Shown: positions 29,194-37,720 of the stretch, in pieces
Layout of the letters: every line of letters begins with the position of its first letter
Numbering within the stretch: position 1 is the first letter of the stretch
DNA from: Nitrobacter sp. 62-23
Lineage (GTDB): Bacteria > Pseudomonadota > Alphaproteobacteria > Rhizobiales > Xanthobacteraceae
NCBI RefSeq assembly: GCF_001897285.1
Contig: NZ_MKSM01000115.1
Location: forward strand, 1-40,562
Direction: 5' to 3'
DNA: 40,562 bases
Translations under genes and position numbers: made by a program
Notes under the pieces: model-generated
The model's database searches: none
The model's input: the letters and a program-made list of their open reading frames with translations, nothing else
What the model was told of the DNA's origin: nothing

Positions 29194-30813
29194 TCACGCG
29201 GGCTCGGTAAGCCATTGACGGATGATGGAGGCGGTTTCGGCGGGATTGCGCTCGGCCAGTTCGCCGACCCGATGCACGGATTGGGCGTGGACCTGCCCCT
29301 GCACCTGGGCAACGTCGATCAGTTGCGCGGTGGCGTTGTTGCCGGGAACGAGATTTTGTCCGGACCCGCCGGCCTGGGCGGTGGCATCGGCCGGAGCCGG
29401 CAGGGCGGACGGCGGACTGGGCGGCGGCGGCTCCGACGCCAGGATACGCTGGACCAGCGGACGGATCACCATGAACGTCACCACGAGGCCGAGCAGCATC
29501 ATGACGGCGAGCTCGATGACGTACATCAGGTCGTCTTTGGTCAACTGCATCATTCCCAGCCAACCGGCCGGCTCGGAGAGCGGCACTACTGACGGCGGCT
29601 CGGCGAATTTGAGGTTGACCACCTCGACCTGGTCGCCGCGCTTCTGGTCGAAGCCGATGGCCGAGCGCACCAGCGTGGCGATGCGATCGAGCTGCTCCTT
29701 GCCGCGCTCCGCATAGACCATCTGGCCCTTGTCGTCTTTTGTATACGTGCCATCGACGAGAACGGCGACCGAGATGCGATTGACGCGGCCGACTTCGGTC
29801 ACCTCGGTCTTGGTGGTGCGGGAGATTTCGTAGTTGTTGGTCTCTTCGCTCTTCTTGCTCTGGTCGCGCGCGGGGTTTGCCGTGTCCGACTGCTGGTTGC
29901 CGGGCAGCTCGTTGTTGACCGTGACCTGGCCGTTGTTCTCAGCGGTGACGGAGGATTCCTCGCGGGTCTGGCTGGATCGCAACACCCGGCCTTCCGGATC
30001 GAACTTGTCGGAGGTCTGGGTGATCTTGTTGTAGTCGAAGTCGGCGGAGAGCTCGACGCGTGCCCGGCCGCTTCCGACCACCGACGACACGATGGCCTCG
30101 ACATGATTGCGCATGCGTTTTTCGAATGCAGCCCGCCGCTCGTCGCCGGTCGCGCCGTCGGCATCGGTGTTCGAGCCGTCGGCAAGCAATTGGCCGGCTT
30201 CGTCCACGATGGACACCCGCTGCGGTTTCAGCCCGTTGACGGCCGAGGCGACGAGATGGCGGATGGCGCGGATCTGCTGCGGTTCGAGGCCGCCGCGGAC
30301 GCGCAGCACGATCGAGGCGGATGGCTGCGGCGCTTCGCGCGAGAACAGCGGCCGTTCGGGCAGCACCAGATGGACGCGGGCGTCCTGGATGCGGTCGATG
30401 GCGCGGATGGTGCGGGCGAGTTCGCCTTCCAGCGCGCGCAGGCGATTGATGTTCTGGACGAAGCTGGTGGTGCCGAGTGCGTCGGATTTGTCGAAGATCT
30501 CGTAGCCGACACCACCGCCCTTGGGCAGTCCCGCCTCGGCGAGCTTCATCCGCAGCCGCGTCACTTTGTCCTTCGGCACCATAATGACGGCGCCGTCGTT
30601 GCGCAGCTCGTAAGGAATGGCCTGGCGTTCGAGGTCCTTGATGATTCCCGAGGAGTCCTCGACGCTGAGGTCGGTAAAGAGGGTCGTCATCTGCGGGGTC
30701 GTGACGCGAATGATGACGAATGCGAAGAAGCCGATCAGCACGGCGGTGACGGCGACCATCGCCATCAGCCGTGACGCGCCCAGGCCTTTCAGAAATGCCA
30801 GCAGCCCCTGCAA
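29194..30813 (-). CDS. fliF: Flagellar MS-ring protein FliF
   Basis: 539 residues from a TTG at 30813 with AAGGGG upstream. First membrane segment about 17-38, periplasmic ring-building motifs (LFTDLSVEDSSGI, LERQAIPYEL, DRIQDARVHLVLPER), a low-complexity insert near 290-330, second membrane segment about 440-465 and a cytoplasmic C-terminus (ASIIRQWL) that binds FliG. FliF forms the MS ring in the inner membrane, the first step of basal-body assembly. It heads the fliF-G-H-N-flbD operon; a CtrA-type box lies 76 bp upstream. Confidence 0.96.
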   Translation of the reverse strand: MQGLLAFLKGLGASRLMAMVAVTAVLIGFFAFVIIRVTTPQMTTLFTDLSVEDSSGIIKDLERQAIPYELRNDGAVIMVPKDKVTRLRMKLAEAGLPKGGGVGYEIFDKSDALGTTSFVQNINRLRALEGELARTIRAIDRIQDARVHLVLPERPLFSREAPQPSASIVLRVRGGLEPQQIRAIRHLVASAVNGLKPQRVSIVDEAGQLLADGSNTDADGATGDERRAAFEKRMRNHVEAIVSSVVGSGRARVELSADFDYNKITQTSDKFDPEGRVLRSSQTREESSVTAENNGQVTVNNELPGNQQSDTANPARDQSKKSEETNNYEISRTTKTEVTEVGRVNRISVAVLVDGTYTKDDKGQMVYAERGKEQLDRIATLVRSAIGFDQKRGDQVEVVNLKFAEPPSVVPLSEPAGWLGMMQLTKDDLMYVIELAVMMLLGLVVTFMVIRPLVQRILASEPPPPSPPSALPAPADATAQAGGSGQNLVPGNNATAQLIDVAQVQGQVHAQSVHRVGELAERNPAETASIIRQWLTEPA

Positions 30814-30854
30814 CGAACCAGCCCCTTGACCCGGCCCGCGGTAAAGGCCGACTC

Positions 30855-30867
30855 GGCAATTATTGCC
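30855..30867. promoter_or_regulatory. Palindrome in the fliF promoter region
   Basis: GGCAAT-T-ATTGCC, a perfect 13-bp palindrome 41 bp before the fliF start, directly beside a GACTC (GANTC, CcrM methylation) site at 30850-30854. The position suits a flagellar regulator such as FlbD; this is inference. Confidence 0.5.
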
Positions 30868-30888
30868 TATGGTATGGTTTCGATATGG

Positions 30889-30902
30889 TTAACGACGGTT
30901 AA
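30889..30902. promoter_or_regulatory. Candidate CtrA box
   Basis: TTAA-N6-TTAA; on the minus strand it reads TTAACCGTCGTTAAC, close to the CtrA consensus TTAA-N7-TTAAC with a spacer one base shorter. fliF is a CtrA-controlled gene in Caulobacter, and sciP, encoding a CtrA antagonist, lies next to it. Confidence 0.55.
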
Positions 30903-30927
30903 GACCCGTGACGAAATTGCTCAATGA

Positions 30928-30960
30928 CAAAAAACCGGTCTCCAGAGGGAGACCGGTTTT
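30928..30960 (-). terminator. Intrinsic terminator after sciP
   Basis: Perfect 13-bp stem AAAACCGGTCTCC (30931-30943)/GGAGACCGGTTTT (30948-30960), loop AGAG, with six consecutive A at 30929-30934, giving a U-run on the minus-strand transcript. It separates sciP from the fliF promoter. Confidence 0.9.
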
Positions 30961-30989
30961 CCGAGAATTCGCGCTAATCTGGAAGTGTT

Positions 30990-31265
30990 TTACTGACGAT
31001 ATTGCTGGATTCGCGTGGTGCGCAGACCGGCAAGGCCGTGCTGGTCGATCGAGAACTGCCAGGACAGGAATTCATCGACCGTCAACGTATAGCGGCTGCA
31101 AGCTTCCTCGAGGGAGAGCAATCCGCCGCGTACCGCGGCGACGACCTCGGCCTTGCGGCGGATCACCCACCGTTTGGTGCCGGGCGCGGGCAGATCGGCG
31201 ATCGTTAACGGGCTTCCGTCGGGCCCGATGACGTATTTTACCCTCGGGCGATGGGGTTCTGTCAT
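30990..31265 (-). CDS. sciP: DUF1153 cell-cycle regulator SciP
   Basis: 91 residues with the DUF1153 pattern: KYVIGPDGSPLTIADLPAPG, TKRWVIRRKAEVVAAV and the helix-turn-helix region GGLLSLEEACSRYTLTVDEF. In Caulobacter SciP binds CtrA and nearby DNA and blocks CtrA-activated transcription. It lies inside the flagellar block between fliF and flgD. The first 34 codons and the upstream DNA are duplicated immediately upstream (31327-31488). Confidence 0.92.
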   Translation of the reverse strand: MTEPHRPRVKYVIGPDGSPLTIADLPAPGTKRWVIRRKAEVVAAVRGGLLSLEEACSRYTLTVDEFLSWQFSIDQHGLAGLRTTRIQQYRQ

Positions 31266-31489
31266 GGCGTACTCACAAACTCTAAACCACTGAACTCGCC
31301 GAGGAAGCTACGCCTTGCGGCTTAAAACCCACCGTTTGGTGCCGGGCGCGGGCAGATCGGCGATCGTTAACGGGCTTCCGTCGGGCCCGATGACGTATTT
31401 TACCCTCGGGCGATGGGGTTCTGTCATGGCGTACTCACAAACTCTAAACCACTGAACTCGCCGAGGAAGCTACGCCTTGCGGCTTAAAA
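31165..31489. repeat. 162-bp perfect tandem duplication over the sciP start
   Basis: 31165-31326 is repeated without mismatch at 31327-31488, and the match runs one base further. Each unit holds the first 34 sciP codons and about 60 bp upstream. The lack of any difference means a recent event, gene conversion or an assembly error. From 31490 to 31632 I see no further gene. Confidence 0.95.
31308..31427 (-). pseudogene. Truncated duplicate of sciP (39 codons)
   Basis: The second repeat unit carries the sciP start and its first 34 codons (MTEPHRPRVKY to TKRWV), then runs across the repeat junction into LSRKA and TAG (31308-31310). The helix-turn-helix is lost. It has the same leader as sciP, so it may be translated, but is most likely non-functional. 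Confidence 0.8.
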
Positions 31490-31632
31490 TTTGCCTAAGC
31501 CCAAGGCTTCAATACGATTCTCCTTGAAAAGACCGCTCGGAAGCGACGCCGGGCCCTTGGTTCAGTGGCGCAAGACCGGTCGGATCATGAGCGGGAAGGT
31601 AGTTTCTGACAGCCGGGCACGAGCCGCGCCGG

Positions 31633-32322
31633 TCAATTCACGATGCGCTTGATCTGGCTGATCGTGTAGCTCTGGCCGCCGATCGACAGCAGTGGCGGCG
31701 ATTGGGTGAGATCGACCGAATTCACCTGACCCTGAATCTGCGTCGAGACCATGACCGGATTGCCGGAGGCATCCGCCCCCGTCGCCGTCAGCGTGTATTT
31801 GCCGTCGGGCCATTGCGTGCCGTCGTTGCCGAGGCCGTTCCAGGCGAAAACCTGATTGTCGCCGGCATTGACGTCGTATGATCCGGAGAAAACGTTCTGG
31901 CCGGTGCTGTTGGCGATGTTGACGGTGAGGGTGGAGGCGGCCGGGACGCTGAGCTGCCAGGTCGCCGCGCTGTTGGTCATGGTGGCGGTACTGCCGTCGA
32001 CCACGGCGTTCTTGCCGACGAAGTCCAGCGCCTGCGTCGCCTGCGTCGTCTGCTGCAGCGAGACGAGGCTCGCGAGCTGGTCGTTCGTTCTCAACTGCTG
32101 CTCGACGCCGGCAAACTGCACAAGCTGCTGGGTGAACTGGTTGGTGTCCAGCGGATCGAGCGGGTTCTGGTTCTGCAACTGCGTCGTCAGCAGCGTCAGG
32201 AAGGTCTGGAAGTTGCCGGCGAGCGTGCTGTTGGTGCTTGCTGCCGCGGAGTTGGAGGAAGCGGGCAACGCCGTCGTGCCCGACACCACCTGCTGAACCG
32301 CAGAGCCCACTGAACTCGTCAT
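31633..32322 (-). CDS. flgD: Flagellar hook-cap protein FlgD
   Basis: 229 residues with GGAGA before the ATG. The N-terminal FlgD signature is FLTLLTTQLQNQNPLDPLDT and FVGKNAVV. A Tudor-like/FnIII-like core follows, with FAWNGLGNDGTQWPDGKYT, the FLGD_tudor/FlgD_ig pattern. FlgD caps the growing hook outside the cell and is discarded when the hook is complete. fliK ends 9 bp upstream, so the two are co-transcribed. Confidence 0.95.
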   Translation of the reverse strand: MTSSVGSAVQQVVSGTTALPASSNSAAASTNSTLAGNFQTFLTLLTTQLQNQNPLDPLDTNQFTQQLVQFAGVEQQLRTNDQLASLVSLQQTTQATQALDFVGKNAVVDGSTATMTNSAATWQLSVPAASTLTVNIANSTGQNVFSGSYDVNAGDNQVFAWNGLGNDGTQWPDGKYTLTATGADASGNPVMVSTQIQGQVNSVDLTQSPPLLSIGGQSYTISQIKRIVN

Positions 32323-37684: not shown

Positions 37685-37720
37685 CTTGGACGCGAACGAG
37701 TTCTTGGACGCGAACGAGTT
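37685..37720. repeat. 18-bp perfect tandem repeat
   Basis: CTTGGACGCGAACGAGTT occurs twice back to back (37685-37702 and 37703-37720), immediately upstream of the small minus-strand gene and 190 bp before dabB. It could be a recent slip or a double operator. Confidence 0.9.

Follow-up and report, generated by a model that had tools for sequence, protein, structure and literature searches.

A probable small tandem duplication of the sciP start region with a breakpoint in the CtrA-type box in Nitrobacter sp. 62-23

In the draft genome of Nitrobacter sp. 62-23, the start of the sciP gene and the DNA immediately before it stand as two adjacent, identical units of 162 bp, the inner of which forms part of an intact sciP gene. 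We regard it as likely that this array arose very recently in one Nitrobacter lineage as a small tandem duplication, much as a short-junction slippage would produce one, and that it has one whole CtrA-type promoter and would leave the dose of SciP the same or slightly lower. The evidence comes from the window (the whole stretch of DNA analysed, 40 562 nt, contig NZ_MKSM01000115.1), from the remainder of the same assembly and from the sciP loci of related bacteria.

Results

The two units (Table 1) share all 162 of their bases in the window sequence, and the identity amounts to 163 nt when the shared base 31165 is counted (31165–31327 = 31327–31489). Each is made up of 62 nt 5' of the ATG, 33 full sciP codons and the first base of codon 34. 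A preliminary description of this DNA had reported a perfect 162 bp tandem duplication with 34 codons and about 60 bp of upstream DNA in each unit, and both the identity and the extent are confirmed in the assembly. At the inner junction the minus strand reads CGGTGGG and then TTTTAAGCC. An exact repeat of 162 bp is beyond chance; the array has a single match in the whole assembly, and the window contains no Ns. Two adjacent direct copies are found here and one copy in close relatives, as befits a small tandem duplication, and in the assembly the duplication is real and tidy, unusual but ordinary in kind. Elsewhere in the window, positions 37685–37720 hold a perfect 18 bp tandem repeat of two copies (unit CTTGGACGCGAACGAGTT).

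Table 1. Features of the sciP array and their positions in the window
Feature	Position	Strand	Basis or remark
sciP, intact, 91 aa, DUF1153 (PF06627)	30990..31265	-	ORF; Pfam 1.6e-40
Inner tandem unit, 162 bp	31166..31327	-	Leader and first 33 1/3 codons of intact sciP
Outer tandem unit, 162 bp	31328..31489	-	Same letters as inner unit
Truncated upstream ORF, 39 aa (sciP residues 1-34, LSRKA, TAG)	31308..31427	-	Translation across array
CtrA-type box TTAG-N7-TTAA	31484..31498	-	Pattern; whole in outer copy alone
-10-like element TAGCTT, outer copy	31467..31472	-	Conserved TA columns
-10-like element TAGCTT, inner copy, without upstream box half	31305..31310	-	Supplies the TAG that ends the upstream ORF
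Direct repeat GCCTTGCGGC, copy 1, inside sciP	31150..31159	+	Read in sequence, in register
Direct repeat GCCTTGCGGC, copy 2, extra copy	31312..31321	+	Read in sequence
Direct repeat GCCTTGCGGC, copy 3, leader copy beside original flank	31474..31483	+	Read in sequence

The gene, its location and its box are ordinary for sciP. The predicted product matches the DUF1153 profile over its full length (positions 5–87 of 87, 1.6e-40), and the gene lies between flgD (31633–32322) and fliF (29194–30813), both of which are recognized by Pfam. The earlier naming of the gene as sciP is upheld by this full-length domain and by the flagellar neighbours, given that DUF1153 corresponds to SciP. In Caulobacter, SciP is described as a repressor of CtrA-activated genes in passages of two reports (PMC4287350, PMC4241560), and none of the papers searched contains both of the whole words Nitrobacter and sciP. 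Between the end of sciP and fliF there is a TTAA-N6-TTAA sequence (30889–30902), the sole one in the window (0.01 expected), which is a candidate CtrA-type site for fliF. In one relative (genome G188, locus L108, 1564–1834) sciP matches occur in two frames, covering residues 1–47 and 47–91, as if the gene were frameshifted near codon 47; a sequencing error is possible there.

Comparison with relatives drew on 119 sciP loci, three of them from the window's own genome and 115 others with at least 150 nt of upstream sequence, which reduce to 106 distinct regions. One locus with only 7 nt upstream (L049) was left out of the upstream counts, and another with only its flgD side (L010, from genome G004) was also left out; two more (L005 and L009) were re-oriented and included in the relatives' counts. 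No exact repeat of at least 18 nt across the sciP start was found in any of the 106 distinct regions. Of the eight further genomes in the genus, seven are single-copy and the eighth (G004) ends before sciP. When 391 family genomes were scanned with a strict pattern for two sciP starts 152–172 bp apart, the present genome was the one hit, the pattern requiring two exact copies of the 14-base start, so that other spacings or letters would escape it. A 501-base query matched 279 of 296 family genomes, and among the matches listed only the present genome covers its full length. The duplication was seen, over the 106 distinct regions and the 391 family genomes, in the present genome only. An old or recurrent duplication drifting in many relatives, which that description had set against a recent origin, was searched for and none was seen. 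The only other exact repeat of at least 18 nt near sciP in the 119 loci is a 32 bp direct repeat in Microvirga (L083), with copies 111 nt apart, 403 and 292 nt upstream of the gene.

The nearest genome compared, that of Nitrobacter sp. 62-13 (NZ_MKRN01000005.1), has one copy, which departs from the unit at 5 of 162 positions, all of them third codon positions; it is not a very close relative, since identity in the wider region is 93.7% across 2830 nt and 87.7% across 1900 nt. Between the two copies in the array there are no differences in 162 positions, which puts the upper 95% bound on their divergence at about 1.8%. On these sequence comparisons the event looks very recent, as had been proposed from the perfect identity, and the single-copy state of related loci agrees.

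Perfect identity of the copies is equally what a contig join would give. We consider it unlikely, if well short of negligible, that the array is an artefact, in which case the chromosome would have one unit and the second would result either from two contigs joined with their overlap retained or from amplification, as a chimeric molecule arising at the 10 bp repeat described below. The array comes from a draft assembly with 142 contigs and 3.02% contamination, and runs of 9 and 13 Ns in two of its sampled stretches (L123 and L126) suggest scaffold gaps. Template switching during amplification also uses short repeats. Some assemblers collapse repeats and later expand them, although passages of the same source state that short-read assembly at repeats usually errs by collapse (PMC6868369). 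Against an artefact, a sample of 359 749 bases of the present genome (18 readable stretches and the window, about 9.5% of the genome) yielded no further exact tandem duplication at periods of 20–3000 bp, the other exact self-matches at such offsets being three, of 20, 26 and 31 nt. No overlap of 20–380 nt was found among the contig ends tested (26 of 284), nor any overlap between the flanks of the two N runs, and a join by overlap would be unlikely to land in register with a pre-existing 10 bp repeat. The clean sample makes an artefact less probable without eliminating it. The assembly error that the preliminary description offered as its alternative to a recent event keeps a minor share of the probability.

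The three copies of the 10 bp direct repeat GCCTTGCGGC are in register with the duplicated unit. The single-copy locus of strain 62-13 (one locus, represented by L003, L027 and L092) has GCCGCAAGGC twice, exactly 162 nt apart, and a second unduplicated relative (L007/L107) also has the 10 bp repeat at the 162 bp spacing, an arrangement found in two of the 106 distinct regions. When breakpoints were placed at random in the window, an in-register exact match of at least 10 nt within 16 bp was obtained in 47 of 633 129 trials, and in none of 38 763 at an offset of 162. Because an in-register 10 bp repeat is so rare at random breakpoints, its presence here points to slipped pairing at that repeat. 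The junction itself has the structure GCCTTGCGGC-TTAAAA-CCCACC, which places the crossover 6 nt past the 10 bp repeat, with a 1 nt overlap at the breakpoint.

The control region was examined for the pattern TTAR-N7-TTAA, which has a single match in the window (31498–31484, minus strand; 0.07 expected). Among the relatives the pattern occurs within 150 nt of the sciP ATG in 100 of the 106 distinct regions, and in 91 of those 100 it lies 70–76 nt before the ATG. It is missing from six, of which three are Methylobacterium loci (L082, L085 and L090) and three come from metagenome-assembled genomes (L073, L076 and L088). The box upstream of the outer copy is one change from the consensus. The spacer of this box contains the outer breakpoint (31489/31490), and the inner copy consequently lacks the upstream half site: no whole box stands before it, the TTAA half remaining and AACG taking the place of TTAG. 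The distance from the whole box to the sciP ATG is accordingly 233 nt here (71 + 162), as against 71 nt. What is present once is the whole box; what is present twice is the -10-like element, the leader and the coding start. Two upstream blocks are conserved among the relatives, namely the CtrA-type box and a stretch of roughly 30 bases directly preceding the ATG. The leader before the ATG (e.g. GAGTTCAGTGGTTGAGAGTTTGTGAGTACGCC) is near-invariant in most Bradyrhizobium, shows small changes in Nitrobacter and differs more in Rhodopseudomonas.

If TAGCTT serves as the -10 element, the transcript would start near 31460 and the box would lie at about -38; as a -10 element TAGCTT is weak. A scan of 30800–31700 for sigma-70 promoters returned no site, which lends this promoter reading no support, and the four terminator-like matches in the same interval are all on the plus strand, opposite to sciP.

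Translated across the array, the outer copy encodes MTEPHRPRVKYVIGPDGSPLTIADLPAPGTKRWVLSRKA and then meets a TAG (31310–31308), which also forms the first three bases of the inner -10-like element. As 162 nt equals 54 codons, the truncated ORF shares the reading frame of sciP, and this TAG is the only stop between the start of the truncated ORF and sciP; amber read-through would yield a SciP of 145 residues. There was no signal of special RNA structure in the doubled leader (31460–31205, from the array transcript to early sciP; z 0.05), nor in the single leader (31298–31205; z -0.07).

Discussion

Passages of published work on other genera provide a framework for reading the control region. 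CtrA is a direct activator of sciP in C. crescentus and S. meliloti (PMC4433202), CtrA-activated promoters of Caulobacter mostly have one site, at -35 (PMC11264516), and full CtrA motifs in Caulobacter start at -39 at ctrA P2, where CtrA activates, and at -49 at podJ P1 (PMC4287350). From conservation and from these other genera we infer the promoter, the transcript start and the effects on expression. The Nitrobacter protein resembles the SciP of C. crescentus, the CtrA antagonist, in being a full-length DUF1153 protein encoded among flagellar genes, downstream of a CtrA-type box. The arrangement differs in that the box here stands 162 bp further off and sciP is preceded by an in-frame, truncated version of its own start. 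Similarly, TTAG-N7-TTAA followed by a -10-like element resembles a CtrA-activated promoter, with TTAA-N7-TTAA near -35, whereas the cutting of the spacer by the breakpoint, which leaves a half site before the inner copy, does not.

The preliminary description had suggested that a doubled promoter and leader could raise the dose of SciP or shift its timing, and such a duplication might be kept by selection. The leader, the -10-like element and the start region are indeed doubled, and the TTAA half site persists before the inner -10-like element. According to passages of one study, a TTAA half site by itself can act in Caulobacter, where half sites form activator and repressor groups (PMC4287350), and the inner copy may have a weak promoter. 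We nevertheless find a gain in dose or a selected shift in timing very improbable. A doubled promoter is rejected as the main reading because the breakpoint splits the CtrA-type box: the inner copy has AACG in place of TTAG, whereas 100 of the 106 relatives have the full box. Furthermore, the full coding sequence is not doubled, the outer copy being a truncated ORF and no second sciP, and one occurrence in one genome is no evidence of selection.

Our preferred reading is instead that one CtrA-type promoter would give a transcript carrying the 39-codon truncated ORF, a second leader and then intact sciP, which would be translated from its own duplicated start region. The effect on SciP would then probably be neutral, or a slight to modest lowering, and not an increase.

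With regard to mechanism, we propose that during replication the 3' end of a nascent strand had copied the GCCTTGCGGC of the leader and six further bases, TTAAAA, and that it then annealed again 162 bp back, at the GCCTTGCGGC within the gene. Extension from there would copy the intervening stretch twice, and its product would be the junction observed. Four of the six TTAAAA positions would be mispaired before extension, the last base being paired. Since the crossover lies 6 nt beyond the repeat and four of these six bases mispair, a simple repeat-to-repeat exchange fits inexactly, and slipped-strand extension would be a looser fit than a crossover inside the repeat.

The nearest parallel in the systems compared is the short-junction (SJ) duplication at sigH of S. 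aureus, in which, according to passages of the report, a short direct repeat already present in two copies gains a third with the tandem doubling of the segment (PMC3486894). The sciP array shares this feature, and the single-copy locus of strain 62-13 has the short direct repeat at the same spacing. The unit is smaller, at 162 bp compared with 1210 bp in sigH clone B1 (PMC3486894). Unlike the SJ type, the sciP array has its crossover 6 nt outside the short repeat and not within it, and on that account we file it as a small tandem duplication only and not as a strict SJ member. It differs also in that the copy next to the promoter is the partial one, while the complete gene is preserved.

The SJ duplication at sigH is reversible (PMC3486894), and we would expect the same of the sciP array, which would collapse to one copy at a measurable rate. 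One could imagine a switch in which sciP alternates, as the unit is gained and lost, between a state with a direct leader and one with an upstream ORF, a form of phase variation of the CtrA antagonist. In favour of such a switch, the comparable reversible duplication in S. aureus, in which the repeats go from two to three, alters sigH expression in the passages cited (PMC3486894), and single-copy relatives have the in-register 10 bp repeat. The array, however, is known from one genome alone; the 162 bp-spaced repeat is kept in just two of the distinct regions, which argues against a conserved switch; and the S. aureus duplication made a new chimeric expressed gene (PMC3486894), whereas sciP here is unchanged. 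A reversible switch therefore seems to us improbable, and it is quite improbable that repeat-driven flipping of sciP tunes the CtrA antagonist, and hence motility, within a population of this nitrite oxidizer. A slippage duplication that is probably neutral and short-lived is the reading we prefer.

Conservation of the box before sciP in loci of Nitrobacter, Bradyrhizobium, Rhodopseudomonas, Afipia and others points to CtrA control of the gene in them too. If real, the array is a clean natural snapshot of a slippage duplication before drift, located at a cell-cycle regulator's promoter, and a sister genome still shows the one-copy layout together with its direct repeat.
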